Assembly: GCA_902168205.1 (NCBI GenBank)
Contig: CABHOK010000011.1
Span: 434,001 to 498,000, forward strand
DNA: 64,000 nt
Direction: 5' to 3'
Source of the DNA: an uncultured Chitinophaga sp.
GTDB lineage: Bacteria > Bacteroidota > Bacteroidia > Cytophagales > Cyclobacteriaceae
Shown here: positions 28,727 through 51,938 of the stretch, one piece after another
Layout: every line of letters starts with the position of its first letter
Numbering within the stretch: position 1 is the first letter of the stretch
Notes under the pieces: model-generated
What the model saw: the letters and a program-made list of their open reading frames with translations, nothing else
Database searches by the model: none
What the model was told of the DNA's origin: nothing
Program-made: the position numbers and the translations under genes

Positions 28727-28727
28727 C

Positions 28728-29777: not shown

Positions 29778-29787
29778 ATCGAATCCC

Positions 29788-30907: not shown

Positions 30908-31906
30908 ATGAACAAAAAAGTAATCACCTTCGGAGAAATCATGTTACGGCTCTCTACTCCGGGGTTTGCACGGTTTACGCAGGCTGAAAGTTTTAAAGCA
31001 CTGTATGCAGGATCGGAAGCAAATGTAGCAGCATCACTCAGTCACTTTGGTATTCCAACGGCTCATGTTACGCGCTTTCCGGAGAATGATCTGGGCAAAG
31101 CCGCAACGCAAACACTGAAGCGCTACGGTGTGGATACACGCTATATTGTATATGGTGATGAACGCATGGGACTATATTTCCTGGAGAACGGTTCCATGCA
31201 ACGAGCTTCACGCATTGTATACGATCGTTTCAATTCTGCCTTCGCACATATAAAGCCGGGCATGATCGATTGGACAGAGGTGCTGAAAGATGCCGCTTGG
31301 TTTCACTGGACGGGTATAACTCCGGCTATATCGCAAGGTGCTGCCGATGTTTGTAAAGAAGCTATAGCCGCAGCACGCAAAATGAACATCACCATCTCGG
31401 GCGATATAAACTACCGGAGAAATCTCTGGCAGTATGGAAAAACGGCTCGTGATATTATGCCTGCACTCATTGAATCCACGAATGTGATTATAGCCGGCAT
31501 TACCGATATGGAAAATTGTGTAGGTATATCAGGTGCCACGTTTGAAGAGGCATGCAAGGCATTCAAACAGGCTTATCCATCAACTACTAAAATATCTACT
31601 ACACTGCGCGATTCTATAAGTTCATCGCATAACCGACTTACCGGTTTGCTATGGAACGGCAAAGAGCTACTGCAATCACAGGAGTATGATATGCCGAACA
31701 TTGTAGATCGTGTAGGCGGAGGCGATGCCTATATGGCGGGCTTGATCTATGGTATACTTACCTCCAAGACCGATGCAGCCACGGTTGAGTTTGCAACGGC
31801 AGCCAGTGTGCTCAAACACTCCATCGAAGGTGATGTTAACTTAGTAACGGCCGATGAAGTAGAGCAACTGGTAAAAGGCGAAAATGTAGGCAAACTACTA
31901 CGATAG
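30908..31906 (+). CDS. kdgK: 2-keto-3-deoxygluconate kinase
   Basis: 332-residue PfkB-family sugar kinase. N-terminal VITFGEIMLRLSTPGFARF and the GSEANVAASLSHFG glycine-rich motif (35-48) are typical of KdgK. The C-terminal PfkB signature reads DRVGGGDAYMAGL with the catalytic base Asp273. It phosphorylates 2-keto-3-deoxygluconate, made by UxaA and from KdgF-derived intermediates, giving KDPG. The next gene is the intact KDPG aldolase, so the two adjacent genes complete the route to pyruvate and glyceraldehyde 3-phosphate. Confidence 0.92.
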   Translation: MNKKVITFGEIMLRLSTPGFARFTQAESFKALYAGSEANVAASLSHFGIPTAHVTRFPENDLGKAATQTLKRYGVDTRYIVYGDERMGLYFLENGSMQRASRIVYDRFNSAFAHIKPGMIDWTEVLKDAAWFHWTGITPAISQGAADVCKEAIAAARKMNITISGDINYRRNLWQYGKTARDIMPALIESTNVIIAGITDMENCVGISGATFEEACKAFKQAYPSTTKISTTLRDSISSSHNRLTGLLWNGKELLQSQEYDMPNIVDRVGGGDAYMAGLIYGILTSKTDAATVEFATAASVLKHSIEGDVNLVTADEVEQLVKGENVGKLLR

Positions 31907-31981
31907 CAATAGGACACAAGTTATCCGGAATATATACGAATAACTATTAACTGATAACGATTAACAATTAACGGCTAAAGA

Positions 31982-32644
31982 ATGAAATTCACCAATCAGC
32001 AAATAGTAGATACCATGAAGCGCACTGGTGTGGTGCCATTATTCACACACGACAATGCCGAAGAAGCGCAGCAGGTTATAGAGGCAGCGTATCGCGGAGG
32101 CGTTCGTGTGTTTGAATTTACCAACCGGAAGAAAAACTCGTACGATGTATTTGTACACATTCTGAAACAACGGAGTAACTACCCGGATCTGATGATTGGT
32201 ATCGGTACTATTATGGATGGTGCGACTACTAAGAAATTTATTGACGCAGGAGCAGACTTTATTATATCTCCGATTCTGAAACTGGAAATGGCTGAAGTAT
32301 GTCGCGCGCACAATAAACTGTGGATGCCAGGCTGCGCTACGCTTACGGAAATTGTAACTGCAAAAGAAAACGGAGCTGAAGTAATAAAAGTATTTCCGGG
32401 TTCTGTACTCGGGCCGGGCTTTGTTTCGTCTATCATGCCCGTTGTGCCGGATCTGCAATTGATGATTACCGGAGGTGTAGAGCCCAATGAGAAAAATCTG
32501 TCTGCGTGGTTCAAGGCAGGGGCTATGTGTGTAGGGATGGGATCGCAGTTATTTACAAAAGAAATTATAGCGGAGAAAAATTGGACACTGTTGGAGAAGA
32601 ATGTAACGGAGGCGTTGGATATTGTGAAGAAACTGCGTAGCTGA
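31982..32644 (+). CDS. eda: KDPG/KHG aldolase
   Basis: 220-residue class I aldolase that cleaves KDPG to pyruvate and glyceraldehyde 3-phosphate. All key residues are present: Glu45 and Arg49 in VFEFTNRK, and the Schiff-base Lys136 in GAEVIKVFPG, followed by the phosphate-binding ITGGVEPNEKNLSAWFKAGAMCVGMGS. It is a paralogue of the protein at 28022, which has lost Lys and Arg at these positions. It lies between kdgK and the hexuronate transporter on the same strand. Confidence 0.93.
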   Translation: MKFTNQQIVDTMKRTGVVPLFTHDNAEEAQQVIEAAYRGGVRVFEFTNRKKNSYDVFVHILKQRSNYPDLMIGIGTIMDGATTKKFIDAGADFIISPILKLEMAEVCRAHNKLWMPGCATLTEIVTAKENGAEVIKVFPGSVLGPGFVSSIMPVVPDLQLMITGGVEPNEKNLSAWFKAGAMCVGMGSQLFTKEIIAEKNWTLLEKNVTEALDIVKKLRS

Positions 32645-32713
32645 AAGTAGCTGCAGTTGTTGAGACAGTATATATAAACCTATAAAGAGATTTTACAACC
32701 AAACCCATAAACC

Positions 32714-34096
32714 GTGGAAAAACTTCATAATGCAAACCAGGCCATTGGTAAATACCGATGGACGATCTGTGCCCTGGTATTTTTTGCCACCACCATTAAC
32801 TATCTCGATCGGCAGGTATTGAGTTTGTTGCAGCCAAGACTTGAGGAACTTTTCGGATGGACCAATAGTGACTACGCCAGCATTGCTGCCGTTTTTCAGT
32901 TTACGTATGCTATATCCATGTTGTTTGCCGGACGCCTGGTTGATAAGCTCGACACGAAGTGGGGCTATGGTTGGGCTATTATTATCTGGTCTGCGGCTGC
33001 GGTTGTTCATGCGTTGGCATTACCCATTGGCGAAAATATAGCATCGATACTCGGTTGGTTCGGTGTGGGTGCTGTATCCATTTCGGTTGCCGGGTTTATG
33101 TTCTCGCGCGCATTTCTGGCGTTGGGTGAAGCCGGTAACTTTCCCGCTGCGATCAAAGCTACAGCTGAGTATTTTCCGAAACGCGAACGTTCTTTTGCTA
33201 CCGGTATATTTAACTCGGGCGCAAATATTGGGGCTATACTCGCTCCGATAACGGTACCGTGGATCTATAGCAATTGGGGATGGGAGGCAGCCTTCATCAT
33301 TATCGGTGCGATTGGCTTTCTGTGGCTGTTGTTCTGGCTGACGCTCTATGAGAAACCGGAAAAACAAAAACGTCTTTCTGCTGCCGAGTTGAACTATATC
33401 AACAGTGATGAAGATAAAAGTACACCAACGCAAACTGTTACACCCGATGAAAAGGTTTCATGGTTTCAACTGCTTGGCTATAAACAAACCTGGGCCTTTG
33501 CTTTTGGTAAATTTATGACGGACGGTGTGTGGTGGTTCTTCCTCTTCTGGTTGCCGGCATACCTCAAAGCACAATATGGCATTATTGATAAGGCTGTAAC
33601 ATTACCGTTAACGGTATTGTATACATTGGCCATGGTGGGGAGTATAATGGGCGGATGGTTCCCGATGTATTTTATTCGCAAAGGCTATGCGGTATACGAT
33701 GGTCGCATGCGCGCGATGCTGGTAATTGCGTTGTTCCCGTTATTGGTACTGGCAGCACAACCTTTGGGTGATATCAGTTTCTGGCTCCCGGTGTTATTCA
33801 TTGGTATAGGAGCATCGGCACACCAGGCATGGAGCGCAAATATATTTACGACTGTGTCTGATATGTTTCCGAAAAAAGCAGTGGCATCAGTGGTAGGCAT
33901 TGGTGGTATGGCCGGTGGTATTGGTGGTGTTATTCTCACTAAATTAGGAGGAGCACTCTTCGATCATTACAAGGCATTAGGACACATCGAGACGGGGTAT
34001 ACCATCATGTTCACCATTTGTTCGGTTGCCTACCTGGTGGCGTGGTCTGTTATGAAAGCACTGGTGCCGAAGTATAAACCGATCACAGACCTCTAG
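32714..34096 (+). CDS. MFS hexuronate transporter (ExuT-like, ACS family)
   Basis: 460-residue, 12-helix major-facilitator transporter starting with GTG at 32714; no ATG gives a better start. Motifs of the anion:cation symporter family are present: TTINYLDRQVLSLLQP, GLxEAGNFPA-type LALGEAGNFPAAIKATAEYFPKRERSFATGIFNSGANIGAILAP, and YEKPEKQKRLSAAELNYI in the central loop. ExuT-type members import galacturonate and glucuronate across the inner membrane with protons. Its position after kdgK and eda supports that substrate. Confidence 0.88.
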   Translation: MEKLHNANQAIGKYRWTICALVFFATTINYLDRQVLSLLQPRLEELFGWTNSDYASIAAVFQFTYAISMLFAGRLVDKLDTKWGYGWAIIIWSAAAVVHALALPIGENIASILGWFGVGAVSISVAGFMFSRAFLALGEAGNFPAAIKATAEYFPKRERSFATGIFNSGANIGAILAPITVPWIYSNWGWEAAFIIIGAIGFLWLLFWLTLYEKPEKQKRLSAAELNYINSDEDKSTPTQTVTPDEKVSWFQLLGYKQTWAFAFGKFMTDGVWWFFLFWLPAYLKAQYGIIDKAVTLPLTVLYTLAMVGSIMGGWFPMYFIRKGYAVYDGRMRAMLVIALFPLLVLAAQPLGDISFWLPVLFIGIGASAHQAWSANIFTTVSDMFPKKAVASVVGIGGMAGGIGGVILTKLGGALFDHYKALGHIETGYTIMFTICSVAYLVAWSVMKALVPKYKPITDL

Positions 34097-34210
34097 GGAA
34101 AATTTGCTTCATCGTAATTCCTGAAATATATACTCAAACTCTCGCTGACCTGTATAGGGTATAAAAATTTATTTTTTATATTTCACTTCCTCAACCAGAG
34201 GTAGAGCCCC

Positions 34211-37200
34211 ATGCCAGCGAGAGTACTTGTATTTTGTTTGTTTATACTGGTGTTGTCTCATCATTGTGTGCGTGCACAAAACGGACAATACCGGTTCTCA
34301 CACCTTGATGTCAACCAGGGCTTGTCCAACAGCCAGGTAAAGACATTTCTGAAAGATAGCAGGGGGTTTCTCTGGATCGGTACCATCTCCGGGCTGAATC
34401 GATTTGATGGCAGCACATTAAAAATATTCCGCAACGACCCGCGCGATACAACAACGCTTCTCGATAATGATATCTATAGGATATTTGAAGATCCTTCCGG
34501 AAGAATATGGGTTTATACGTATGCCGGCATGTGTATATATGATCCCGCCACCGAAAAATTTACCCGCAACGTATATCGCGTACTGCGGGAGTATAACATG
34601 CCGGAAGGCTTTTTGACAGAGATACTAAAAGACCGTGAAGGTAATTTCTGGTTTCTCCACAACACGGGCAGACTCTATAAATATATACCTGCTCAGAAAA
34701 AAACGATTTCCGTTCTTCAGCATGATACGGACACAACGCTTGCCCATAGTAATCCGATATTTTCCATCGCGAAAGGAGCCAACTGCCTGTGGCTGCTGCA
34801 TCGCAACGGTATGCTTGAAAAACTCGATGTCCAATCGCTGCATATACTATACCGCAATCTGACCTTCCATCAGCAGAATAAAAATGAGACACCAGAGTAT
34901 AGTCTGACAGCCGACAATGATGGTGATTTATGGATATACTTTGTGAACACAAACAATGGCGTATATCATTTCAGAACTTCCGAGAAGAAGATTTATCATT
35001 TTAATAAAACGTCATCGCCCGTTCATCTGAACACCGATATTATACGCGGAGTTGTACAGGATAACAAAGGTCTCATCTGGATCGCGACCGATCATGGCGG
35101 TGTTAACGTCATCAACAAGAAAGATTTTTCGGTTCACTATATTTTACACAATACCGAAGACGAGAGAAGTCTGAGCCAGAACAGTATACAGACGATGTAT
35201 AAAGATTACGATGGTTTTATCTGGATTGGTACGTATAAGCGCGGTGTTAATTACTATCATGAAAATGTGATTCGTTTCCGGCTCTTTCGCCATTCAACAT
35301 CCAATAAAAATAGTTTGCCTTTCAATGATATTAATTGCTTTGCCGAAGATGATGATGGTAACATTTGGATCGGTACAAATGGTGGAGGTCTTATCAAGTA
35401 CGATCGGAAGACAGAACACTTTACCCAGTATACGCATGAGCCGGGTAATCCAAACACCATTGGCAGCAATGTAATTGTAAGTATGTTCTTTGACAGCTAT
35501 AAAAAGTTGTGGATCGGTACATACTATGGCGGCTTGAACAGTTTTGATGGTCGCAACTTTACCCGCTACAGGCATTCGGCAGATCCGAAGAGTATAAGTG
35601 ATGATAATATCTGGGAGATCTTTGAAGACTCGCAGCGAGAACTCTGGATTGGTACACTGAAATCAGGTATAGATGTATTCGACCGGGATTCAAAAACATT
35701 CAGACATTATCCCTCCATACAATTTCACCTCGACAGCTCAGTACACTCAACCTATATACCCGCTATTGTTGAAGATGCAGAGAAAAACATCTGGATAGGC
35801 ACGGGTTATGGAATTGATTTTTACGATCGTAAAACCGGAAAGTTTACACACTATCTGAATGATGTAAATAATCCGAAGAGCCTCGGGCATAACAATGTAT
35901 TTTCTATTCTCGATGACGGGAAGGGAACGATATGGATCGGTACCAAAGAAGGATTGAATTTATTCGACAAGAAAACAAAAACATTTCGCGCACTGCGACA
36001 AGAAGACGGTTTGCCGCATAACACAGTGTTGACGCTGCTGCAAGACAGTGGCGGTAATTTGTGGATGAGTACACCGCAGGGATTGTCCAATCTCATATTG
36101 AGGCGAAAGCCTGATGGCACGATTGCATCTTTCCGCTTTAAGAATTACGATGAGTCGGATGGTCTGCAAGGCAAATCTTTCAACGAAGGTGCCGCCTATA
36201 AAACACGTAAAGGAGAATTGATCTTCGGTGGTGCCAATGGTTTTAATCTTTTCAAACCGGAAGATATAGTACTCAATGACAAGAAGCCGGTAGTACGTTT
36301 TACCGGTTTACAGATTTTCAATAAAGAAGTAAAGATAGGCGAGAAGGTAAAGGGCAGTGTTATACTGGATAAGTCGATAACGCTCACGCCCGGGATCAGG
36401 CTTGCACACAGCGATAATGTTTTCTCGATCGAGTTCACTTCGCTTAATTATTTTCTTCCGGAGAAGAGCCGGTATAAATATAAACTTGAAGGCTTTAATA
36501 AAGAGTGGCTTGCCACCGATGGTAACTCCAGGCGCGTAACCTTTACCAACCTCGATCCGGGTGAATATACCCTTCGCGTAAAAGCTTCCAATAACGATGG
36601 TATATGGAATGACGAAGGCACTTCGATGAAAATTGTTATACTGCCCCCGTTCTGGAAAACGAAGACAGCTTTTGTACTTTATATATTCCTGGTGATGGCG
36701 GCACTGCTGGTAACGCGTAAACTGATTCAGCAACGCGAGCGTCTCAAATTCATTATTGAGCAGGAACGACAAGAGGCACAACGCATGCACGAGCTTGATA
36801 TGATGAAGCTTCGGTTTTTTACCAACGTTAGTCATGAGTTTCGCACACCGCTTACCTTAATACTTGCCCCCGTAGAAAAACTGATGAAAGCTGCCAACGA
36901 AGAGCAGCGAACACAATTTCAACTGATCCACCGCAATGCAAGACGACTGCTTAACCTGGTCAATCAACTGCTCGATTTCCGGAAGCTCGAAGTGCAGGAA
37001 ATAAAATTCAATCCATCGGAAGGCGACATCGTACGGTTTATCCGCGAGACTACATTTTCGTTCTCGGATATGTCGGAGAAGAAAGATGTCTCACTGGATT
37101 TCAAAACTTCGGTAGATTCCCTCGAAACTATTTTTGATCGGGATAAGCTCGAAAAGATCTTGTTCAACCTCCTGTCCAATGCATTCAAATTTACTCCCGG

Positions 37201-38323
37201 TAATGGAAATATAACGGTAACTATAAACGAGGTGCATGGTGAAGAAGGCAAGTGGCTGGAGATACGCGTAACGGATACCGGTATAGGTATACCGCTGGAT
37301 CAGCAGGAAAAGATATTCGAACGGTTCTTTCAGCACGATCTCCCCGGAAGCATGGTAAACCAGGGCAGCGGTATAGGACTGTCTATTACAAAAGAGTTTA
37401 TACGTATACATGGCGGTAACATTACTGTAACCAGCGAACCCGGAAAAGGAAGTTGTTTTACTGTAACTATACCGGTAAAGGATGTTACTGCACATGAAGT
37501 TCCTGCAGCACTGGAAGAAGCTGAGATACCCGAATGGGAGGCGGAACTTCAATCGGATAAACCTAGCATTTTGCTGATTGAAGACAACGAAGATTTCCGT
37601 TTCTACCTGAAGGATAATTTACGACTGCACTATAAAATTATAGAGGCGCGTAATGGTAAAGAAGGTTGGAACCAGGCTTTGTCCACATTGCCCGACCTGA
37701 TTGTAAGTGATGTGATGATGCCGGAGATGAACGGAATTGAACTTTGTAAAAAGATTAAAAACGATCCGCGGGTGTCGCATATACCGGTAATTCTGCTTAC
37801 CGCGCGCACCGCAGAAGAACAGAAGATGGAAGGTTTTGAATCCGGAGCAGATGATTACATCACCAAGCCTTTCAACTTTGAGATATTGCAATCGCGGGTT
37901 CGTAACCTCATTCATCAGCGCGAAGCATTCCAGAAAGACTTCCGCAGGCAGATCGAAGTAAAGGCCAGCGATGTAAACATTACGTCTCTGGATGAAAAAC
38001 TTATTCAGCGCGCCATCAAATGCGTAGAAGACAATATTTCCGACACCGCCTTTTCTGTTGAGACACTAAGTCACGAGCTCGGCATGAGTCGGGTACACCT
38101 CTACAAGAAACTGTTGGCGCTAACGGGCAAGAGTCCGATCGAATTTATCCGCGTCATTCGCCTGCAGCAAGCCGCACAGTTACTGGAGAAAAGTCAACTC
38201 ACCGTATCGGAAGTAGCCTATAAAGTTGGCTTCAACAATCCGAAATACTTTACCAAGTACTTTAAGGAAGAGTATAAAATGCTGCCATCTGCCTACGCTG
38301 TCTCCAAGCGATCGAAGGAGTAG
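34211..38323 (+). CDS. Hybrid two-component system regulator (HTCS)
   Basis: 1370-residue one-protein phosphorelay. Signal peptide (1-22), two periplasmic beta-propellers with at least 13 visible WIGT-like blades (about 25-690), a Y_Y_Y domain (about 725-805), one transmembrane helix (about 815-838), HisKA with His875 in VSHEFRTPLT, HATPase (NLLSNAFKFTP, DTGIGIP, GSGIGLSI), a receiver with phospho-acceptor Asp1167 in VSDVMMPEMNG, and an AraC-type DNA-binding domain at the end (about 1265-1370). Proteins of this class sense an oligosaccharide in the periplasm and activate a polysaccharide locus. Placed after the uronate genes, it most likely responds to a pectin fragment. Confidence 0.95.
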   Translation: MPARVLVFCLFILVLSHHCVRAQNGQYRFSHLDVNQGLSNSQVKTFLKDSRGFLWIGTISGLNRFDGSTLKIFRNDPRDTTTLLDNDIYRIFEDPSGRIWVYTYAGMCIYDPATEKFTRNVYRVLREYNMPEGFLTEILKDREGNFWFLHNTGRLYKYIPAQKKTISVLQHDTDTTLAHSNPIFSIAKGANCLWLLHRNGMLEKLDVQSLHILYRNLTFHQQNKNETPEYSLTADNDGDLWIYFVNTNNGVYHFRTSEKKIYHFNKTSSPVHLNTDIIRGVVQDNKGLIWIATDHGGVNVINKKDFSVHYILHNTEDERSLSQNSIQTMYKDYDGFIWIGTYKRGVNYYHENVIRFRLFRHSTSNKNSLPFNDINCFAEDDDGNIWIGTNGGGLIKYDRKTEHFTQYTHEPGNPNTIGSNVIVSMFFDSYKKLWIGTYYGGLNSFDGRNFTRYRHSADPKSISDDNIWEIFEDSQRELWIGTLKSGIDVFDRDSKTFRHYPSIQFHLDSSVHSTYIPAIVEDAEKNIWIGTGYGIDFYDRKTGKFTHYLNDVNNPKSLGHNNVFSILDDGKGTIWIGTKEGLNLFDKKTKTFRALRQEDGLPHNTVLTLLQDSGGNLWMSTPQGLSNLILRRKPDGTIASFRFKNYDESDGLQGKSFNEGAAYKTRKGELIFGGANGFNLFKPEDIVLNDKKPVVRFTGLQIFNKEVKIGEKVKGSVILDKSITLTPGIRLAHSDNVFSIEFTSLNYFLPEKSRYKYKLEGFNKEWLATDGNSRRVTFTNLDPGEYTLRVKASNNDGIWNDEGTSMKIVILPPFWKTKTAFVLYIFLVMAALLVTRKLIQQRERLKFIIEQERQEAQRMHELDMMKLRFFTNVSHEFRTPLTLILAPVEKLMKAANEEQRTQFQLIHRNARRLLNLVNQLLDFRKLEVQEIKFNPSEGDIVRFIRETTFSFSDMSEKKDVSLDFKTSVDSLETIFDRDKLEKILFNLLSNAFKFTPGNGNITVTINEVHGEEGKWLEIRVTDTGIGIPLDQQEKIFERFFQHDLPGSMVNQGSGIGLSITKEFIRIHGGNITVTSEPGKGSCFTVTIPVKDVTAHEVPAALEEAEIPEWEAELQSDKPSILLIEDNEDFRFYLKDNLRLHYKIIEARNGKEGWNQALSTLPDLIVSDVMMPEMNGIELCKKIKNDPRVSHIPVILLTARTAEEQKMEGFESGADDYITKPFNFEILQSRVRNLIHQREAFQKDFRRQIEVKASDVNITSLDEKLIQRAIKCVEDNISDTAFSVETLSHELGMSRVHLYKKLLALTGKSPIEFIRVIRLQQAAQLLEKSQLTVSEVAYKVGFNNPKYFTKYFKEEYKMLPSAYAVSKRSKE

Positions 38324-38671: not shown

Positions 38672-41600
38672 ATGAAATCTTCAAGCACCCCACACAGCGA
38701 GGATTCGATCGCTATCATTGGAATGTCATGCCGTTTCCCGAATTCAAACTCACTCGATGAATTTTGGGAGTTACTAAAAAATGGAAAAGATACTATTGCC
38801 GAAATTCCCAAAGAGCGCTGGGATGCAGACCGATATTACGATCCGGATCCACAGGCTACGCGCAAAACGCATCAGCGTCACGCATCACTGTTGAGCAATA
38901 TCCACGATTTTGATCCACTGTTCTTTAATATATCTCCGGCGGAAGCAAGCGAGATGAGCCCGTCTCAAAAACTGATGATGGAGCTGGCGTGGGAAGCGAT
39001 TGAAAACTCTTCATTACCCTATAACGATGTGAAGGGTAAAAATGTAGGTGTGTTTGTGGGCAATATATGGACAGACTTTGAACATTACCGTAAAGCCAAG
39101 AATGCAAAAGCAACGTTGCACTCGGCTGTGGGGATGTCATCTAACGTAGTGGCTAACCGCGTGTCGTTTGCCATGGGTTTTACCGGTCCGAGTCTTGTTA
39201 TCGACACCGGGTGTTCTGCATCACTTGTAGCGTTGCATATGGCGTGTCAAAGCTTGCTCCATGACGAATCAACGATGAGCATTGTGGGGGGTATCAATCA
39301 TATACTGGATCCGGATAAATATATAGAGCTTACACAGTTCGGTGGACTTTCTGTAAAAGGAAAGTGCAGCACGTTTGATGTGGATGCAGATGGTTTCGTA
39401 CGCGGTGAAGGCGGGGGGGTATTGCTGTTGAAGAAACTATCGGAAGCCGAACGTGACGGTAATAAAATATATGCAGTGATTCGTGGATCGGCTGTAAACA
39501 ACAACGGCTTTAACGATACGTTGCCGGCCACCAGCACCGAAGGACAGATATCACTTTTCGAAAAAGTATATACCAGTGCAGGTATCGATCCGCACGATGT
39601 TCATTACCTGGAAGCACACGGTACCGGTACTAAACTTGGTGACCCGAACGAAGCAATAGCCATTGGTGAATTTTTTGGCAAAGGCAGAACAGGCAAAAGC
39701 CTGCGTATCGGTTCTGTAAAAACAAATATAGGGCATACCGAAGCTACGGCCGGTATAGCTGGTCTTATTAAAGTGGTGTTGGCTATGCAGCATAAAGTGC
39801 TTCCTCCAAACCTGAACTTTAACAATCCCAATCCAAATATACCTTTCGAAGAACTTCACCTGGAAGTACAAAAAGATTTATCATCATGGCCTGTTAACAA
39901 TGGCGAAACATTTAAAGCCGGTGTTAACTCGTTTGGCTGGGGTGGTACAAACGCTCACGTGGCGCTTGAAGAATATCGCGCTCCCCGTACAGAGTCAGTT
40001 ATACCAGCCAATAGTTCAGAAGTATATGCATTGCCGCTATCGGCCAAATCATCGCAGGCATTGAAAGATTATGCACGTGCCTATGCAAAATCAATTGAAC
40101 TTGGTGACGAAGATAATTTCAAGGCTATATGTGTAGCCGCATCGATTCGTAAGCCGGAATTCGATCATCGTATACTCTTTACAGCAAGCACGCGCGAGCA
40201 GATGCTGGCAAGTCTCAAAAACTTTTTTGAAGACGAAGCAGAGGCAACACCCTGCATGCCACTGACTGAAAAAGCAAAAGTTGTTTTTGTATTCCCGGGT
40301 CAGGGTGCGCAATGGCTGGGCATGGGCCGTGAGTTGCTGGTAAAAGAGAAAGTATTCAGAGATACTATATTGGCGCTGGATGCAGCGTATCGTACCTATA
40401 CCGATTGGTCGCTGGTAGATCAGATCAACGCTACACCGGAGACTGATCGTTTGAAAGAGATCAACGTGATTCAGCCCGCTATATGTGCTATGCAGATAGC
40501 TCTTGCCAAACTTTGGATGTCGTGGGGTATACAACCACAAGCTGTAGTAGGACACAGCATGGGCGAAGTTGCAGCTGCCTATATTTCAGGCGCTATAAAA
40601 ATGGAAGATGCAGCACGCATCATCTGCGAACGCAGCCGCCTGATGAAAACCGTAAGCGGTAAAGGTGGTGCGATGGCCGTAACAGAACTAAGCCGTGAAG
40701 AAGCAGAGAAAGTTGCTGCTAACTATGGCGGTAAACTTTCTGTAGCCGTTAACAACAGCTATAAATCTACAGTACTTGCTGGCGATAAAGCTTCTATTGA
40801 TGAAGTGCTGGCGCAACTGGAGGCAAAAGAATTATTCTGCCGCCTGGTGAAAGTAGATGTAGCATCGCATAGCCCGCAGATGGATCCGTTGAAAGAACCG
40901 CTGCGTAAAGAACTGCAAGGCGTAGTACCGCAGCCGACTGTGATACCTTTTGTATCAACCGTACATAATAAAGTAATGCAGGGCACCGACATGGGCGCTG
41001 ACTACTGGGTTGATAACCTGCGTGGCACTGTACAGTTTGCATCCGTAGTTGAAAATCTGCTGAAGGATGAACACATTGTTTTCATTGAAGCAAACCCGCA
41101 CCCGGTATTGGTAAATGCTGTTACCGAATGTGCAGAGCACGTTCGTAAAAAAGTAATCACCATTGCATCTACACAGCGAGATAACCCGGAGCTTGATGTG
41201 ATGTTCAAAAACCTGGGCGACTTATATAGCAAAGGTTACTCTGTAAACTGGAAGACATACTATGGTACGGCTACTGCTCCGCAAGCACAACTTCCTGCAT
41301 ATCCGTTCCAGCGCGAGCGCTACGAAATAGAAGATCTTTCCAAGGAACTTGATAATGCTAAAGATGTTGTTGCAAAGTACCCGCTGCTGGGAAGCAAGAT
41401 CAACCTCGCGAACATAGAAGATATATACTTCTGGGAATCATCCATAAGCTTGAACAAGTTTCCATACCTGCGCGAACGGCTCGTACAGGATCGCGTGGAA
41501 TTGCCGGTGTCATGCTATATTGAAATGGTATTGGAAGCTGTTGCCGAAGTATACAACGATGTTCCGGTACGCGTGGAAGACCTCAAGTTTACCCGCAGTC

Positions 41601-43393
41601 TCAATTTGTCAGACAACTCCCGCGTAGATGTACAGGTTAAACTTGTGATCCGCGAGAATAAACTTGGACAGGTATATATCTTCAAAAAAGAAGATCAGGA
41701 GTCAGGATGGATACAATTGGCGCAGGGAGGAATTGAGATCACGGAAGAAAGTAAATATGTTCCGGAAATATTTGAGCAGATTGAATACCATGCACCGGAT
41801 TATACCGAAGGTGTAAGTTATTATAATTTACTCCGCTCCATTGGATTTAATTTTGGCAAGCATTTTCAACAACTCACCGGACTTGATAAAGTTGGTAACA
41901 AGCCGTTCCCGAATGTATTGTTCTCCATCAAGGCTGATCCGAACGTACACCTGACATCATCCAAGTATAAAATACATCCGGCATTGATGAGCAGTTTCTT
42001 CCAGCCTATATACGGACAACTCGTATCCATACTGGAAGAAGGAAATTTACTGGATGTTCGTTTCAGCAATATTGACCAGGTAGCGATGCATGCAGCTGTT
42101 AATTATAGTCGTGAGTTACGCGGTTTCCTGGTTTTCCACCCGTTGGTAAAACACGAAAGCAATTCAAATGCATGGCGCTTCACAGCCGATATTACCATCG
42201 CTAATTTTGATAACACTCCGGTAATGACAATAACCGGTTTGCAAGGTATAGCAGAGCGCAAAACGCCTAAAGCAAACAGCAGTGGTCAGAAAGCAGGAGG
42301 CTTTGTATTTCTTGAACACTATGCAACGATCAAAACTGAAAGCGAGAAACAACTTGCGCTGGAACAGATGATCACACACCACGTGTCGAAGATCATCAAG
42401 ATATCCGCCAATCGCATCAAGCATACCATGACCTTTAAAGGAATGGGACTCGATTCACTGATGGCTGTGCAATTAAGAAATCTTCTTGAAAAAGAACTGG
42501 CTATCAAATTAACCGTTGGTTTGTTCTGGTCGCACCCAAGTATACAGGAGTATGCCGCATACCTGAAAGATATACTTACGGCACAGAATCACGGCACTAC
42601 CGTAGCCGTGCAGCCCGCGGTTGATAAAGTTGTTAACTGGTTCACGATTCCGAAGGCAAACCCGAATGCTTCATTCCGCGTATTCTGTTTCCATGATGCA
42701 GGCGGAAGCGCTTCACTCTTCAACGGTTGGGAAAACCTTTTGGACAATGCCACCACTGAACTGGTACTGGTTGAAATGCCGGGAAGAGGAAGAAGAATGG
42801 AGGAAACGCCATACGTGGATTTCCAAACATTCATGCGTGACATTATGCCGTCTATCATTCCGATGCTGAATAAACCCTATATATTTCTGGGACACAGCAT
42901 GGGTGGTATGGTTGCTTACGAAATTGTACGCGAGCTGCGCAGAAGAAAACTGGCTTTGCCGGAAACGCTATACATCTCTTCAACGTCTGGGTTAGGCGCG
43001 TACGAGAAAAAACAGGTGGACTACACATTGTCTGATGATGAACTTGTACAGATGTATCCGCACCTGGCATTGAGCAATGTTGGTGATGTGGAGATCCAGA
43101 GTCTCATGATCAACATTCTGCGGGCCGATCTTCAGTTCCTGTATCACTACGAGTTCATCACGGAAGAGCCGTTGAACATACCAATCATTGCCATCCACGG
43201 ATCAGAGGATGAACGTGTAAAACGTAACCAGATCGAGCAGTGGGAAAAAGAGACAGCAGTATCTTTCAATTTGATCTCACGCACCGGTGGACACCGCTAT
43301 ATCGAGCATGACGGTGCATTTGTTGCCCAGCTTGTGCAAGACAATATCTATAACAGAATGGTAACGCACCAGCCGGCCAAGACTCTTTTGTAA
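38672..43393 (+). CDS. Single-module type I polyketide synthase, KS-AT-(inactive DH)-ACP-TE
   Basis: 1573 residues from ATG 38672; an in-frame ATG at 38630 would add 14 residues before the conserved start. Ketosynthase (about 10-435) with Cys181 in DTGCSASL, EAHGTGT and NIGHTEA; acyltransferase (about 555-850) with Ser629 in GHSMGE and a VASH motif at the extender-specificity site; a dehydratase-fold domain (about 905-1215) in which the catalytic His is Arg936 (YLRERLVQDRVELP) and the catalytic Asp is Ser1107 (HPALMSSFFQ); carrier protein with Ser1262 in GLDSLMA; and thioesterase (about 1330-1560) with Ser1409 in GHSMGG. No ketoreductase or enoylreductase is present. It would make a non-reduced short chain or act iteratively. 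The product is unknown. Confidence 0.92.
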   Translation: MKSSSTPHSEDSIAIIGMSCRFPNSNSLDEFWELLKNGKDTIAEIPKERWDADRYYDPDPQATRKTHQRHASLLSNIHDFDPLFFNISPAEASEMSPSQKLMMELAWEAIENSSLPYNDVKGKNVGVFVGNIWTDFEHYRKAKNAKATLHSAVGMSSNVVANRVSFAMGFTGPSLVIDTGCSASLVALHMACQSLLHDESTMSIVGGINHILDPDKYIELTQFGGLSVKGKCSTFDVDADGFVRGEGGGVLLLKKLSEAERDGNKIYAVIRGSAVNNNGFNDTLPATSTEGQISLFEKVYTSAGIDPHDVHYLEAHGTGTKLGDPNEAIAIGEFFGKGRTGKSLRIGSVKTNIGHTEATAGIAGLIKVVLAMQHKVLPPNLNFNNPNPNIPFEELHLEVQKDLSSWPVNNGETFKAGVNSFGWGGTNAHVALEEYRAPRTESVIPANSSEVYALPLSAKSSQALKDYARAYAKSIELGDEDNFKAICVAASIRKPEFDHRILFTASTREQMLASLKNFFEDEAEATPCMPLTEKAKVVFVFPGQGAQWLGMGRELLVKEKVFRDTILALDAAYRTYTDWSLVDQINATPETDRLKEINVIQPAICAMQIALAKLWMSWGIQPQAVVGHSMGEVAAAYISGAIKMEDAARIICERSRLMKTVSGKGGAMAVTELSREEAEKVAANYGGKLSVAVNNSYKSTVLAGDKASIDEVLAQLEAKELFCRLVKVDVASHSPQMDPLKEPLRKELQGVVPQPTVIPFVSTVHNKVMQGTDMGADYWVDNLRGTVQFASVVENLLKDEHIVFIEANPHPVLVNAVTECAEHVRKKVITIASTQRDNPELDVMFKNLGDLYSKGYSVNWKTYYGTATAPQAQLPAYPFQRERYEIEDLSKELDNAKDVVAKYPLLGSKINLANIEDIYFWESSISLNKFPYLRERLVQDRVELPVSCYIEMVLEAVAEVYNDVPVRVEDLKFTRSLNLSDNSRVDVQVKLVIRENKLGQVYIFKKEDQESGWIQLAQGGIEITEESKYVPEIFEQIEYHAPDYTEGVSYYNLLRSIGFNFGKHFQQLTGLDKVGNKPFPNVLFSIKADPNVHLTSSKYKIHPALMSSFFQPIYGQLVSILEEGNLLDVRFSNIDQVAMHAAVNYSRELRGFLVFHPLVKHESNSNAWRFTADITIANFDNTPVMTITGLQGIAERKTPKANSSGQKAGGFVFLEHYATIKTESEKQLALEQMITHHVSKIIKISANRIKHTMTFKGMGLDSLMAVQLRNLLEKELAIKLTVGLFWSHPSIQEYAAYLKDILTAQNHGTTVAVQPAVDKVVNWFTIPKANPNASFRVFCFHDAGGSASLFNGWENLLDNATTELVLVEMPGRGRRMEETPYVDFQTFMRDIMPSIIPMLNKPYIFLGHSMGGMVAYEIVRELRRRKLALPETLYISSTSGLGAYEKKQVDYTLSDDELVQMYPHLALSNVGDVEIQSLMINILRADLQFLYHYEFITEEPLNIPIIAIHGSEDERVKRNQIEQWEKETAVSFNLISRTGGHRYIEHDGAFVAQLVQDNIYNRMVTHQPAKTLL

Positions 43394-43413: not shown

Positions 43414-43459
43414 ATACCAGTATACGTGCAGCATATATAGCCTGCACGTATATTGGTAT
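43414..43459 (+). terminator. Long hairpin terminator after the PKS gene
   Basis: An 18-pair stem (43414-43431 with 43442-43459, one G-U pair) carrying ACGTGCAG/CTGCACGT, followed by a loose T-rich stretch TGTTATTTT. Confidence 0.65.
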
Positions 43460-43492: not shown

Positions 43493-43903
43493 ATGAAAGA
43501 ATCAGTTAAGGATAAAATTATAGGAACGTGGAAGCTTGTTTCGTGGAAATATATGGATGGTGATAAGGAGCCTGCGGATTTCTTTGGTGAAAATCCAAAA
43601 GGTATACTTACATATGATACGAGCGGCTATATGAATGCACAGTTGATGAAAAGCGGTCGGAGTAATTTCAATGCTGAATCAATGACAGGTGGCACGACCG
43701 AAGAAATAAAAAATGCGTACCTGAGCTATGCAGCTTACTGGGGAAAGTACTATGAGCGAACGCCAGGTGAACTGGTGCATGAAGTAGAAGGAAGTCTTTT
43801 TCCGAATTGGGTTGGTCACGATGAAATTCGATATGCACAGATTGATGGAGATACGCTCGTGTTAAGTATACCTCCATTTCGGGTTACGTGGAAACGCGCA
43901 TAA
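43493..43903 (+). CDS. Lipocalin-like domain protein
   Basis: 136 residues, no signal peptide. The start IIGTWKLVSWKYMDGDKEPADFFGENPKGILTYDTSGYMNAQL is the pattern of the lipocalin-like family (Lipocalin_5 type), a small beta-barrel, and the chain ends in a barrel strand LVLSIPPFRVTWKRA. The family is thought to bind small hydrophobic compounds. Located 99 bases after the PKS, on the same strand and just beyond its hairpin, it may bind, cyclise or protect the polyketide; this is inference from position only. Confidence 0.7.
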   Translation: MKESVKDKIIGTWKLVSWKYMDGDKEPADFFGENPKGILTYDTSGYMNAQLMKSGRSNFNAESMTGGTTEEIKNAYLSYAAYWGKYYERTPGELVHEVEGSLFPNWVGHDEIRYAQIDGDTLVLSIPPFRVTWKRA

Positions 43904-43910
43904 AAAAAAA

Positions 43911-43962
43911 ATCTCCGAAAATCTTCTGCTCCAACACAGGATTTTCAGAGATATATTTTTTT
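43911..43962. terminator. Bidirectional terminator between the lipocalin-like and STAS-like genes
   Basis: Stem ATCTCCGAAAATC/GATTTTCAGAGAT (43911-43923 with 43940-43952, one mismatch), flanked by an A run at 43902-43910 and a T run to 43962, as expected between convergent genes. Confidence 0.8.
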
Positions 43963-43972
43963 AAGCTTAAAG

Positions 43973-44395
43973 TTATTTTGCTACAGTTGCCTGTTCTTTT
44001 AACCACTTGCGTGCATCAGGCTCCGAATTGAAAATAGCTACGGTATAAACACCTTTTGTAGCTTTTGTGAAACCTTGCAGTGAAAGCTGGGTAAATATAT
44101 TGTCAGACATGATCACTGCCATATCCGTGAGTCCTTCTTTTGCTGCGCGTGGGTTCCAGTCTGTCTGATACCACTCGTTGGCAGCTTGCCATGGACCTGA
44201 TACTTTACGGTTATCAACCAATACTCTACTGCATTTCACTTCTTTGATAATTTTAAGTAATTCTTCTGAGCCTGCCTTTACTTGATCTACCGTAAGGAAG
44301 CCGTTCCAATCAACATAGATAATGTCGGTGTCCCTTTCGTGGGTAATGGTAACGTAGATCTCTTTACCGTTAGGCCGCTTAAATTCTCTTTTCAT
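43973..44395 (-). CDS. Small STAS/SpoIIAA-like protein
   Basis: 140 residues, cytoplasmic. The pattern is alternating strands and helices: IYVDWNGFLTVDQVKAGSEELLKIIK, RVLVDNRKVSGPW, then WNPRAAKEGLTDMAVIMSDNIFTQLSLQGF and VAIFNSEPDARKWL. It resembles small STAS/SEC14-like proteins common in Cytophagales and Chitinophagales. Two relatives lie at 63028 and 63619. No function is known to me; it is convergent with the lipocalin-like gene and divergent from the phosphopantetheinyl transferase. Confidence 0.65.
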   Translation of the reverse strand: MKREFKRPNGKEIYVTITHERDTDIIYVDWNGFLTVDQVKAGSEELLKIIKEVKCSRVLVDNRKVSGPWQAANEWYQTDWNPRAAKEGLTDMAVIMSDNIFTQLSLQGFTKATKGVYTVAIFNSEPDARKWLKEQATVAK

Positions 44396-46941: not shown

Positions 46942-49900
46942 ATGACAAAAATTTACGGGAAACAATTACGAGTCTTCGTGATGCTGTTTCTGTTAGGAAC
47001 TGTTACCAGCGTGTATGCGCAGAAACAGGTCGTAACGGGAAAGGTTACGGATGCAACCGGCCAGGGAATGCCGGGAGTTAACGTTCTGCTGAAAGGCAGT
47101 ACTGTGGGAACTACCTCTGATAAAGAAGGAAACTTCTCGATCGAGGCTGCTCCTACAGATATACTGGTGCTGTCTTTCATTGGGTATAAATCGCAGGAAC
47201 TTCCGGTGGGCAATCAAACCAATGTCAATGTAGCATTGGAAGAAGATGTAGAAACTCTTTCAGAGATCGTTGTGATTGGTTATGGTGAAGTAAAGAAGAG
47301 TGATCTCACCGGTGCCGTTGCTTCTGTAAAAGGAGAAACATTAACAAAGACACTAACCTCTGGTATAGATCAGGCGTTGATCGGTAGAGTTGCGGGTGTT
47401 TCAGCAGTACAAATGTCTGGACAGCCCGGTGCGAGTGTTTCCATTCGTATACGAGGTACATCCTCTATATATAGTGGTGTTGAACCTCTGTATGTAGTAG
47501 ACGGTGTTCCGCTTTCCGGTAACAACGGAACGGTATATGATATAGGCCTTGGTGCAGTAGGTGGCGGTGGTAAAACAACCTATAGCCCGCTCTCAACCTT
47601 AAACCCGAATGATATAGAGTCTATTGAAGTATTAAAAGATGCATCAGCGACTGCTATATATGGAAACCGTGGATCGAATGGTGTTGTAATCATTACAACA
47701 AAGCGTGGTAAATCTGGTCAGACAAAAGTAAGCTATGAAGGATATTATGGTTTGCAGCAAGTGTCGAGAAGACTTGACATGATGAACCTGCGCGAGTATG
47801 CAGAATTCAGAAATGATTTTGCTGCAGAAACGGCAGGAGAAACTCCTACACCCGAGTTTGCTGATCCTTCCTTATTAGGAGCAGGTACCGATTGGCAGGA
47901 AGAAATATTCCGCACAGCTGCCATGCAAAATCATCAACTTACGTTATCGGGAGGTTCTGATAAAGTACGCTATTCAATGGGCGGTAACTACTTTAATCAG
48001 GATGGTGTTGCGATAGGTTCAAATTTCGAACGCTATCAAATGCGCATAAACCTGGATGCAGATATAGCAAAATGGTTAAAAGTGGGTAACAGCTTATCGA
48101 TAAGCCGCACCGATGAACGCTTAGGACAATTCGATCGTGGTGGTATCATTAACACCGCATTGAAAGCACGTCCGGATGTACCGGCTCGTAATTTTGACGG
48201 AACATTTTCAGGTGGCGAAGGTGAAGGTTCTTTTGTTAGTCCACTAGCCCAGGCGTTGGATAAGAAAAATACTTTGAAGCGCGCACAGATACTCGGCAAC
48301 CTATATGCTGAAGTAAAATTACTTCCTACACTTTCGTTCCGTACAGAGTTCGGTGGTAACGTTGACTTCAGTAATTCATCTTCATGGAACCCTATGTACG
48401 ATTACGGTGGTGGCGCTGTAAATACACAGAACAGTCTCCGCAAGCAGCGTAACATAAATTATTTCTGGCAATTCAAGAACTACGTAACCTATAACAAAAC
48501 ATTCATGAACGATCACAACACAACGTTCATGTTAGGACAGGAAGCTTCCGAGTGGGGTTATGATAATGTGTGGAGCTACTCTGCAGGTTTACCTACGAAC
48601 GATGTACAGTCTATTAATTTAGGAACAACCCTTAACCAACGTGCGGGTGATGCGTATGGAAGCGGAGCGCTGAGTTCATACTTCGGTCGCTTGAACTATA
48701 ATTTCCGCGAGAAGTACTATTTGACATTTACATACCGGGCAGACGGTTCATCTAATTTTGCAGAAGGTAATCGCTGGGGGTACTTCCCATCAGCAGCGTT
48801 GAAATGGAAAATTTCAGGTGAGTCATTCATGAGTGGTGTTGAAAATGTTCTGAACGATCTGAATATTCGTGCAGGTTGGGGTCAAACCGGTAACTCAAAT
48901 GTTAGTGGATATTTATATGGTGCTGCGTTTGACTTGATGCCTACTAATCTTGGTTTAGGTTTCCGTGTGAAGAACCACCCGAATCCTGATCTCACCTGGG
49001 AAACTGCAGAACAAATCGATCTTGGTATAGATGCCGGATTTCTCTCCGGTCGCATTCAGTTGAATGTTGATTTATATAGAAAGCGTGTTAAAGATCTGTT
49101 GAACCCATATCCGCTGCCAGGCTATATGGGAAGTTTAGGAAACCCGGCTATATCGCTGAAAGCTCCATGGACAAACGCTGGTGAAATAGAAAATAAAGGT
49201 TTGGAGATAGCTGTAAAAACAATTAACACAAGAGGTGTATTGCAATGGGAAACCGACTTCAACATAACCTTCAACAGAAACAAACTGGTTGACCTTGGTA
49301 TCAAAGATGCTGCACTGGATGGATTTACCGGTGGTGCAGGAAATATACTTATATCGCGTACCATGAACGGAATGCCATTAGGCGAGTTCTATGGCTATAA
49401 AGTTGTAGGTATATTTAAAGATAAAGCAGATATACTCAACAGTCCTGTACAGTGGGATCCTACCGAAGTAGACTCAAACGGCAACCCTGTATTTGAACGC
49501 AACGGAACCGTATGGCCTGGTGATTTGAAATTTGCTGATATAGATGGTAACGATACCATCGATGTTCGCGACAGAACGTACCTTGGGTCACCTCAGCCTA
49601 AATTTACATTTGGTTTCAACAACACATTCCGCTATAAAGGTTTTGAACTTGAGATATTCCTGGTAGGAAGCTACGGTAACAAAATCTATAACTTCAACAA
49701 ACAAGGTGATGGAAGCGGTATAGCAGATATGCGCAGCGCTTGGAACAACCAGCTTACCGAAGTAACAGGTCGTGCTAAACTTCAGCCGGTAACAGAAGCC
49801 GTTGATGGCTGGTGGAATAATATAGATAATGTGCAGGTTAGTAACGTAGGTACAGATATACCACGTGCCACTAATCAGGATCCGAACCAGAATTCACGTG

Positions 49901-50169
49901 TATCCGATCGCTACATAGAGGATGGATCCTATATCCGTGCACGTAACATCACACTGTCATATACTATACCAGATGTGGTTACCCGCCGGATTAAATTCAG
50001 CCAGTTGAAAGTATATGCACGCGTGCAGAATGCATTCACCATTACAAACTACTCAGGCTACGATCCGGAAGTTGGTCAGGATACCTGGGATCCACTGATC
50101 TATGGTTTGGATAACGGTCGCTATCCTTCACCGAGAACGTATTCACTTGGAGTTATTGCAAATTTCTAA
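46942..50169 (+). CDS. SusC/RagA-family TonB-dependent transporter (second glycan locus)
   Basis: 1075 residues: signal peptide (about 1-27, VYAQ), carboxypeptidase-regulatory-like domain (VVTGKVTDATGQGMPGVNVLLKGSTVGTTSDKEGNF), a TonB-box-like stretch SEIVVIGYGEVKKSDLTGAV, a plug with PLYVVDGVPLSG and SIEVLKDASATAIYGNRGSNGVVIITT, and a beta-barrel ending YSLGVIANF. It pairs with the SusD gene 20 bases downstream. The cargo is an oligosaccharide released by the GH enzymes of this unit; identity is not readable from the sequence. Confidence 0.95.
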   Translation: MTKIYGKQLRVFVMLFLLGTVTSVYAQKQVVTGKVTDATGQGMPGVNVLLKGSTVGTTSDKEGNFSIEAAPTDILVLSFIGYKSQELPVGNQTNVNVALEEDVETLSEIVVIGYGEVKKSDLTGAVASVKGETLTKTLTSGIDQALIGRVAGVSAVQMSGQPGASVSIRIRGTSSIYSGVEPLYVVDGVPLSGNNGTVYDIGLGAVGGGGKTTYSPLSTLNPNDIESIEVLKDASATAIYGNRGSNGVVIITTKRGKSGQTKVSYEGYYGLQQVSRRLDMMNLREYAEFRNDFAAETAGETPTPEFADPSLLGAGTDWQEEIFRTAAMQNHQLTLSGGSDKVRYSMGGNYFNQDGVAIGSNFERYQMRINLDADIAKWLKVGNSLSISRTDERLGQFDRGGIINTALKARPDVPARNFDGTFSGGEGEGSFVSPLAQALDKKNTLKRAQILGNLYAEVKLLPTLSFRTEFGGNVDFSNSSSWNPMYDYGGGAVNTQNSLRKQRNINYFWQFKNYVTYNKTFMNDHNTTFMLGQEASEWGYDNVWSYSAGLPTNDVQSINLGTTLNQRAGDAYGSGALSSYFGRLNYNFREKYYLTFTYRADGSSNFAEGNRWGYFPSAALKWKISGESFMSGVENVLNDLNIRAGWGQTGNSNVSGYLYGAAFDLMPTNLGLGFRVKNHPNPDLTWETAEQIDLGIDAGFLSGRIQLNVDLYRKRVKDLLNPYPLPGYMGSLGNPAISLKAPWTNAGEIENKGLEIAVKTINTRGVLQWETDFNITFNRNKLVDLGIKDAALDGFTGGAGNILISRTMNGMPLGEFYGYKVVGIFKDKADILNSPVQWDPTEVDSNGNPVFERNGTVWPGDLKFADIDGNDTIDVRDRTYLGSPQPKFTFGFNNTFRYKGFELEIFLVGSYGNKIYNFNKQGDGSGIADMRSAWNNQLTEVTGRAKLQPVTEAVDGWWNNIDNVQVSNVGTDIPRATNQDPNQNSRVSDRYIEDGSYIRARNITLSYTIPDVVTRRIKFSQLKVYARVQNAFTITNYSGYDPEVGQDTWDPLIYGLDNGRYPSPRTYSLGVIANF

Positions 50170-50189
50170 AGACCTGAAAAGAATTTAAT

Positions 50190-51920
50190 ATGAAACGATA
50201 TTATAAAACCTTAAGTCTGGTTGCGTTGCTCAGCATCGGGACATTTGGATGTGGTGATGACTTCTTGAATCGTCCGCCACAGGATAGTTACGTAGTAGAT
50301 GAATGGTATCAAACCGATGAACAGCTTGAGCTTGCTGTTAACCCCCTCTATGGAGGTGTTTGGTTTGACTACCAACGTTCATGGCTGAATATAGGCGATG
50401 TTATGGCCGGTAATTTTCACAAAGGTGATGAAGATGCCTTCTATACCTTTAGCGTGAACCAGGCTACATCCGGAATTTCTGATGCCTATAATTCATTGTG
50501 GATGGCTGTGGCATATTCCAACAGTGTTATCGATAACGTGAAAGAACGTGCCGGAGGTAAAGTAACCGAAGCTGCCAAGAACAAAGCGTTAGGTGAAGCA
50601 TTGGTATGGAAGTCTATGGCGTACTTTTACCTGGTAAGAGGCTGGGGCGCAGTTCCGATCATCGAGAGCAATTCAGCGCTCATCACGTCAGGCGAAGCCA
50701 ATACAGTATATCGCAATCGTACCGAAGATGTATATGAGTACATCGTAAGGATGTTAACCTATGCAGCTGATCTGCTTCCGACAACAAACACGGCAGGACG
50801 TATCAATAAGTATGCAGCGTATGGTCTGCTCGCCAAAGTATATTTAACACGGTCGGGCTACACGTCAGCAGGAAACAGCGGAACGCGAAACCAGGCTGAT
50901 CTTGATAAAGCAAAAGAGTATGCTGGAAAAGTTGTGAACGGAAGCGGCCTCGTGCTGGAACCGGAGTATTCAAACCTTTTCAATATCAATGAGACAAAAG
51001 GAAATCGCAATCCTGAAAACCTGATTTCATGGCACTGGATCTCGACTGCTAACTGGGGAACTCAGAATGCTATACAGGCTGACCTTGCTGTACAAACCTT
51101 AACGGGTTTTGGTGATGGCTGGGGAACGTGGTCTGGTCCTTCGGTAGATTTGCAACAATTGTTTGGTGAAGATGCAACGGAGATTGATGCGTCAGATCGC
51201 GTCAACATAGACAAGAGAAGAAAAGCTACCATGATGATGAACAACGATTATTATGCTGATCTGAACCGCGATGGTAAAATGCTTGTGGATGGCCCCGGAG
51301 TAGCTCCTTCTCCTTATGAAGTTGATGGAAAAGGTTTACGGGTATACTGGGATGCTAAAGGAGTATTTGCATCACCCACCGGTGCATGGGCTAGAAAACA
51401 TATTGTTGGGAACAAAGGAGATAATGATGCAGAAGGTGGTGGTCCGATTGACTTCATGAAAACCTCACTCTCTACACATATACTTCGCCTGGCAGATATA
51501 TACCTGGTATACGCTGAAGCCATTCTTGGAAATGCAAGCACAACGGGTGATGGGGAAGCATTGAAAGCTTACAACGCAGTGCGCAGACGTGCTATACCTT
51601 CGCACACGGATGTTACCGAGATTTCATTCGATGAAATTTTTGATGAACGCAGACGCGAGCTGGCCTATGAAGGTGACAACTGGTTTGATTTTGTTCGGTT
51701 ATACTACTACGATGAAGTAAAGGCCGTTCAAAAATTATCGAGTCAGGAGAGAGGATGGTATGGCGGCAATGCTGCAGCTGGAGGTATTACTCTTACTTCC
51801 AAAAGTTATACACCATCAGCCGGTGATTTTGAATTGCCGATTCCGGAAGTAGACATTCTTAAAAATCCAAACCTGACTGCTGATCCGGTAGCGTATGACT
51901 TCAGTAAGCTGGATTTCTAA
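50190..51920 (+). CDS. SusD/RagB-family glycan-binding lipoprotein (second glycan locus)
   Basis: 576 residues. Signal peptide with lipobox TFGC (Cys21) followed by GDDFLNRPPQ, the standard SusD start. Typical helices follow: NSLWMAVAYSNSVIDNV, ALGEALVWKSMAYFYLVRGWGAVPII, INKYAAYGLLAKVYLTRSGY, and the C-terminal THILRLADIYLVYAEAILG and FDEIFDERRRELAYEGDNWFDFVRLYYY. It would form the surface lid of the adjacent SusC. Confidence 0.95.
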   Translation: MKRYYKTLSLVALLSIGTFGCGDDFLNRPPQDSYVVDEWYQTDEQLELAVNPLYGGVWFDYQRSWLNIGDVMAGNFHKGDEDAFYTFSVNQATSGISDAYNSLWMAVAYSNSVIDNVKERAGGKVTEAAKNKALGEALVWKSMAYFYLVRGWGAVPIIESNSALITSGEANTVYRNRTEDVYEYIVRMLTYAADLLPTTNTAGRINKYAAYGLLAKVYLTRSGYTSAGNSGTRNQADLDKAKEYAGKVVNGSGLVLEPEYSNLFNINETKGNRNPENLISWHWISTANWGTQNAIQADLAVQTLTGFGDGWGTWSGPSVDLQQLFGEDATEIDASDRVNIDKRRKATMMMNNDYYADLNRDGKMLVDGPGVAPSPYEVDGKGLRVYWDAKGVFASPTGAWARKHIVGNKGDNDAEGGGPIDFMKTSLSTHILRLADIYLVYAEAILGNASTTGDGEALKAYNAVRRRAIPSHTDVTEISFDEIFDERRRELAYEGDNWFDFVRLYYYDEVKAVQKLSSQERGWYGGNAAAGGITLTSKSYTPSAGDFELPIPEVDILKNPNLTADPVAYDFSKLDF

Positions 51921-51938
51921 TTCATAAATCTTGAATGT

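Follow-up and report, generated by a model that had tools for sequence, protein, structure and literature searches.

We analysed a 64,000-nucleotide stretch of DNA (hereafter the window) from an uncultured Chitinophaga sp., in which the forward-strand open frame at 38672..43393 encodes a type I polyketide synthase (PKS) of 1573 amino acids with the order KS-AT-DH(like)-ACP-TE. With a probability of about 0.55, we conclude that this type I PKS is non-reducing and presumably iterative, keeps a pseudo-dehydratase (pseudo-DH) as a scaffold and releases a pyrone or a β-keto acid. The domain order, the non-reducing character and the double inactivation of the dehydratase had been proposed in an initial annotation of the sequence, and are borne out by Pfam and by a family alignment in which Arg936 and Ser1107 occupy the His and Asp columns. 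Our analysis adds a likely origin by ketoreductase (KR) deletion, an apparent stepwise loss of the catalytic dyad and a lipocalin-like partner gene. An open-licence literature search returned no title or abstract opening that names this PKS clade or its lipocalin-like gene.

Pfam and alignment place the KS domain at residues 11–383 (38702..39820), the AT domain at residues 538–840 (40283..41191), the ACP domain at residues 1237–1298 (42380..42565) and the TE domain at residues 1336–1546 (42677..43309), all on the forward strand. The KS Cys motif (178), the AT Ser motif (GHSMGE, 627), the ACP Ser motif (1259) and the TE Ser motif (GHSMGG, 1407) are intact. The DH-like domain as modelled spans residues 896–1202 (41357..42277, forward strand; Pfam, structure model and fold search), with PKS_DH_N at residues 904–1004 (E 8.4e-16) and PS-DH at residues 1049–1191 (E 3.8e-7). 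No KR lies between it and the ACP: the KR region is missing in the alignment with relatives, and neither KR, ER nor SAT is found among the 18 Pfam families matching the protein at E ≤ 1. With KS, AT and ACP present and KR, active DH and ER absent, the enzyme belongs to the non-reducing type I PKSs. An in-frame ATG at 38630 provides an alternative start (1587 amino acids); the Met equivalent to 38672 is the start in four relatives. The genome has 12 KS-family matches, of which only that of the window PKS falls in a large frame (1587 aa), the other frames measuring 366–423 aa; since the window PKS is the genome's sole type I PKS-sized frame with a KS, it would build its chain iteratively. Four KS-family matches with frames of 366–423 aa lie within about 10 kb on contig C3 of genome G000 (872047-882363), a group that we take to be perhaps a type II or aryl-polyene cluster.

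At E 1e-10, 73 of 390 family genomes matched the DH-to-TE part of the enzyme, many through single thioesterases or longer PKSs. Selection by score and frame length left a clade of 33 in this draw, comprising six KR-less enzymes (1561–1588 aa), the window PKS among them, and 27 others (26 of 1984–2137 aa, and G003, cut at a contig end). The 29 KR-bearing members examined (26 from the family, another three from the order; G003 left out) all have the order KS-AT-DH-KR-ACP-TE. These synthases, from Cytophagales and relatives, are similar to the window PKS in KS (identity 0.61–0.70), lipocalin-like neighbour and domain order, but they possess a KR, and 27 of the 29 also carry the His/Asp dyad. Seven genomes of the window's genus comprise four with the KR-less form, two with the KR form and one with neither. 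A genome-collection scan with the DH-to-TE query confirmed 4 relatives among 175 stretches, all KR-less; KR-less PKSs occur in Ohtaekwangia koreensis (L065, 80% over the query), in Chryseosolibacter indicus (L066, 57%) and in metagenome-assembled genomes (L067 and L068). The order-wide draw (26 of 390 genomes at E 1e-150) and the phylum-wide draw (6 of 395 genomes matching), which are samples from larger groups with two candidates scored per genome, list no frame of about 1560–1590 aa besides the window's. The initial annotation had proposed looking for the same architecture elsewhere in Bacteroidota: it recurs in the six KR-less clade members, and none further is listed in the phylum-wide sample. 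A plasmid search yielded 1297 records matching the window PKS, all below 60% identity; a match on a Paenibacillus plasmid was set aside, having another layout and lying beside NRPS genes.

Residue 936 (41477..41479, forward strand) is Arg where 27 of the 29 KR-bearing members have the catalytic His, and residue 1107 (41990..41992, forward strand) is Ser where the same 27 have Asp. The initial annotation had asked whether the true His and Asp might be offset and present. The window PKS was aligned with 20 relatives and then with 35, with the outgroup L058 in both (L039 was left out of alignments A1–A3), and no shifted catalytic His or Asp was found in either; offset residues were rejected because the motif columns line up in both. 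Compared with an active PKS dehydratase (PF21089/PF14765), the domain has the double-hotdog fold and lacks the His, the Asp and a KR in the module; it is a DH fold without the canonical active-site residues, as in the CalA3-type non-catalytic domain.

In KS-AT trees with L058 as outgroup, the KR-less six form one clade (SH-aLRT 100 in one tree, bootstrap 100 and SH-aLRT 100 in the other) surrounded by KR-bearing lineages, with the clade base unresolved. Given this fully supported monophyly among KR-bearing relatives, the KR would most simply have been deleted once. On the second of these trees, KR function must have been lost three times or more. Of the 29 KR-bearing members, 26 have both an intact KR Tyr motif and an intact DH dyad; the dyad is thus intact in 26/26 enzymes with the Tyr motif, and wholly or partly lost in 6/6 KR-less and in both point-inactivated members. 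The latter are the sisters L055 and L105 (G242 and G274), whose KR and DH domains are whole with both sites broken, the DH columns holding Lys and Glu; judged from their sequences, they represent a second, independent route to a non-reducing synthase, by point changes. In L117 (G577) the KR catalytic Tyr is gone and the DH dyad is intact, possibly an early stage of the same change. Among the KR-less enzymes the dyad reads His/Asn in L043, His/Ser in L042, a Chryseosolibacter enzyme, and Arg/Ser in all four enzymes from the window's genus: both residues are lost only in that genus (4/6), the other two having kept His and lost Asp, a pattern that points to stepwise erosion of the dyad. Overall, of three independent cases of KR loss, two also show dyad loss (sign test p 0.5, too few for significance), and L117, which keeps its dyad without the KR Tyr, counts to that extent against our preferred reading.

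AlphaFold2, run with 20 sequences, predicted a full double hotdog for residues 896–1202 (pLDDT 88.0, pTM 0.89). The top Foldseek matches of this model are the DH domains of CurF and CurK, and VIA-align Z values reach 33.0 for DH domains, 28.9 for the PksA product template (5kbz, rmsd 2.6 over 282 residues), 27.7 for CalA3 (7wvz) and 27.6 for the RhiE branching module (4kc5). The retention of the DH fold, suggested in the initial annotation, agrees with this prediction. By these scores the modelled domain is somewhat nearer in fold to DH domains than to the product template of fungal PksA; it has one fold in common with DH, product-template (PT), CalA3 and RhiE domains alike, which does not reveal function. 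The AviM PT (7VWK) is not among the matches listed by Foldseek and VIA-align, whose library may or may not hold that entry. PksA is likewise a non-reducing PKS whose double hotdog sits between AT and ACP, but this fungal product-template system has two features absent from the window PKS: a His-Asp dyad and, ahead of the KS, a SAT starter domain. The KS of the window PKS begins at residue 11. RhiE resembles the window domain in its DH-like double hotdog region, though at 9% identity; its B domain is non-catalytic and its branching module sits in a trans-AT assembly line. The calcimycin release module CalA3 contains a likely inactive DH that forms part of a structural region, as described in the available portion of its report (PMC10006239); unlike the window PKS, it retains a KR region, has no ACP and serves as the release module of a modular system rather than as a synthase on its own.

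The domain could alternatively be a bacterial product template as in AviM, performing the C2–C7 aldol ring closure of that type and giving an orsellinate-like product. The orsellinic acid synthases AviM and CalO5 (Streptomyces, Micromonospora) have a KS-AT-DH-fold-ACP layout without KR and a DH-like fold, according to the accessible part of PMC9135731, so that the layout of the window PKS is the same apart from its TE, which they lack. That part of the report describes an AviM H949A mutant in which orsellinate was abolished and tetraacetic acid lactone was made, a D1104A mutant that kept most activity, a double mutant that behaved like H949A (tetraacetic acid lactone), and an enzyme without the PT domain that made only a little lactone (PMC9135731). 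L042 and L043, with His and no Asp, correspond to the mostly active D1104A, in line with a product template, whereas the essential His, which AviM and CalO5 keep, is replaced by Arg in 4/4 members of the window's genus. We consider this explanation quite unlikely for the window PKS, and the likeness to product templates drawn in the initial annotation is not supported as far as catalysis goes, the window PKS having Arg for a His that AviM needs (within the portion of PMC9135731 available) and a fold somewhat nearer to DH. By analogy, the window enzyme resembles the AviM His/Asp double mutant, and the small amount of lactone left after domain deletion in the same excerpt (PMC9135731) suggests that a dead DH fold still helps the synthase.

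Nei-Gojobori dN/dS for the DH-like domain was 0.040 between the window PKS and L039 (298 codons; L039 contains a run of N) and 0.022 for the L040–L041 pair, compared with 0.030 and 0.024 for KS and 0.022 and 0.078 for TE in the same two pairs. These two pairs are the usable ones: window–L040 gave a DH-like dN/dS of 0.085 at a dS of 1.6, near saturation, and dS was not computable for deeper DH pairs. The DH-like domain is not decaying but under purifying selection, which fits the structural or product-shaping role that the initial annotation had envisaged for a domain kept without catalysis. At KS identities of 0.60–0.72, mean DH identity is 0.257 for the 52 pairs that combine a KR-less with a KR-bearing enzyme versus 0.313 for the 67 pairs within the KR-bearing set, with no comparable drop for AT, ACP or TE between the two groups; the pairs have branches in common, so the comparison is descriptive, and L055 was left out. 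In four KR-less enzymes, the three old DH motifs, with limits chosen by the analyst, are conserved at 25/47 positions versus 82/246 in the rest (p 0.013), and in four KR-bearing enzymes at 27/47 versus 42/246 (p 3e-8). From these counts, which leave out L039 (whose DH-like part contains a run of N) and L041 (a near copy of L040), the pocket of the KR-less DH appears to have undergone some relaxation, not loss. In addition, 31 positions do not vary among the six KR-less enzymes and have the same residue in at most one of 26 KR-bearing enzymes (L055, L105 and L117 left out).

These data bear on two further explanations. That the domain is a decaying remnant without a role would agree with its lost catalytic residues, its greater divergence between groups than that of the other domains, and a weaker contrast between old motifs and the rest than in KR-bearing enzymes. 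We give this very little credence: vestigial decay is disfavoured by the low dN/dS (0.040 and 0.022), identity among the same four KR-less enzymes, again without L039 and L041, is 0.57 for DH and 0.56 for TE, and the PKS frame is open in 6/6 KR-less members. The other explanation, in which the old pocket was remodelled to carry out a different reaction or to bind a specific ligand, with Arg936 and the clade-typical residues taking part, is unlikely but has points in its favour, namely Arg in 4/4 members of the window's genus, the 31 clade-typical positions, the pocket motifs still conserved and the DH-specific identity drop between groups. A bare scaffold need not show more conserved old motifs or clade-typical positions, so these count against it. 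However, Arg936 is absent from the two other KR-less enzymes, the identity pairs have common branches, and the clade-typical positions are those of the alignment.

The remaining possibility is a KR and a dehydratase supplied in trans, leading to a reduced product. There is one SDR gene in the window (29740-30609), and fatty-acid FabG and FabZ presumably occur in the window's genome. The SDR, however, lies within a sugar-acid gene run together with aldolase, MocA-type and kinase genes, and a scan of 15 neighbouring genes at the two more distant KR-less loci, L042 and L043, turned up no KR or SDR (the Pfam neighbour scan left out small genes at L042 and, bar one, the neighbours of L040/L041). 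The initial annotation had raised a trans-acting KR at homologous loci as a point against it; with none found at these two, we regard reduction in trans as very improbable.

The low dN/dS, the full predicted DH fold, the AviM and CalA3 precedents and the lack of a neighbouring KR together argue for a pseudo-DH kept as a scaffold. In the mechanism we propose, an ancestral KS-AT-DH-KR-ACP-TE synthase would have lost its KR by one deletion, after which KS, AT and ACP would condense malonyl-type units without reduction. The pseudo-DH would dehydrate nothing, and would instead lie between the condensing half and ACP-TE as a scaffold and a chamber. An unreduced tri- or tetraketide would then undergo O–C cyclisation to a 4-hydroxy-2-pyrone or, alternatively, be hydrolysed by the TE to a β-keto acid; the presence of a TE favours active release. 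The lipocalin-like partner may bind or handle the product.

This partner (PF13924, E 2.6e-27; 136 aa) is encoded at 43493..43903 on the forward strand and begins 99 bp downstream of the PKS gene. It lies directly 3' of the PKS in 35/35 clade loci (the window and 34/34 others) and is absent beside the PKS at the outgroup L058 locus; this constant pairing is new. A profile of 16 lipocalin-like proteins matched 44 of 390 family genomes at E 1e-10. All 32 matches at E 1.6e-50 or better neighbour a clade PKS and have its orientation (16 of these were in the profile, and the remaining 16 provide independent support), and the other 12 are at E 1.9e-34 or weaker. The L039 relative was predicted as a small barrel (pLDDT 91.3), its best fold match being 4gzv, a Bacteroides lipocalin-family protein (Z 11.9, rmsd 4.1 over 110 residues). 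Searched against PDB sequences, the profile gave one match (E 0.21, taken as chance), and the spirocyclase OssO was rejected as a fold match (TM 0.35, too weak). The aligned proteins have invariant His, Arg, Tyr and Asn residues, which would suit a binding or catalytic pocket; the window protein has a 9-residue in-frame gap near its C-terminus relative to its relatives. It is conceivable, though we think it improbable, that the clade transferred product shaping to a partner in trans. The pseudo-DH would then do no more than hold the reactive unreduced chain, with the lipocalin-like protein serving the entire PKS family as cyclase or release chaperone; if true, this would be a new solution, based on two proteins, for directing how polyketide rings close.

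A 4'-phosphopantetheinyl transferase gene (PF01648; 44664..45296, forward strand), with homologs in 14/20 relative loci examined, probably activates the window ACP. A convergent SpoIIAA-like gene (PF11964, 25.9 bits, the cut-off being 25; 140 aa; 43973..44395, reverse strand) has homologs in 16/20 and may or may not belong with the PKS locus. A long hairpin (43414-43459) lies inside the 99-bp gap between the PKS and lipocalin-like genes, and hairpins of other sequence occupy the same gap in L039, L040 and L041, with minimum free energies, computed without a shuffle control, of -29.9, -22.4, -25.6 and -35.8 kcal/mol for the window, L039, L040 and L041; in L042 and L043 the gap is short (21 and 46 bp). 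An inverted repeat followed by a T run (43910-43961), between the lipocalin-like and SpoIIAA-like genes, reads by eye as a two-way terminator. Upstream, the sugar-acid run (28022-38323) contains two KDPG-type aldolases, a MocA-type oxidoreductase, the SDR, a PfkB kinase and an MFS transporter, and ends in a hybrid two-component regulator; the hybrid regulator upstream of the PKS at L039 (11571-15729, G213) appears as two overlapping frames, reflecting either a break or an assembly error. Downstream, a SusC/SusD pair and a xyloglucan-binding surface protein (46942-53087) probably form a polysaccharide utilisation locus.

The clade provides a natural series that starts with reducing enzymes (KR and His/Asp dyad), continues with KR-less enzymes that retain only the His and finishes with enzymes that have lost both residues. 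A few extant enzymes would thus suffice to test how a dehydratase domain turns into a cyclase or a bare scaffold. Its KR-less members are a natural experiment in how one-module PKSs change product, and an uncharacterised lipocalin-like family tied to one PKS clade offers a target for the role of small barrels in polyketide biosynthesis.
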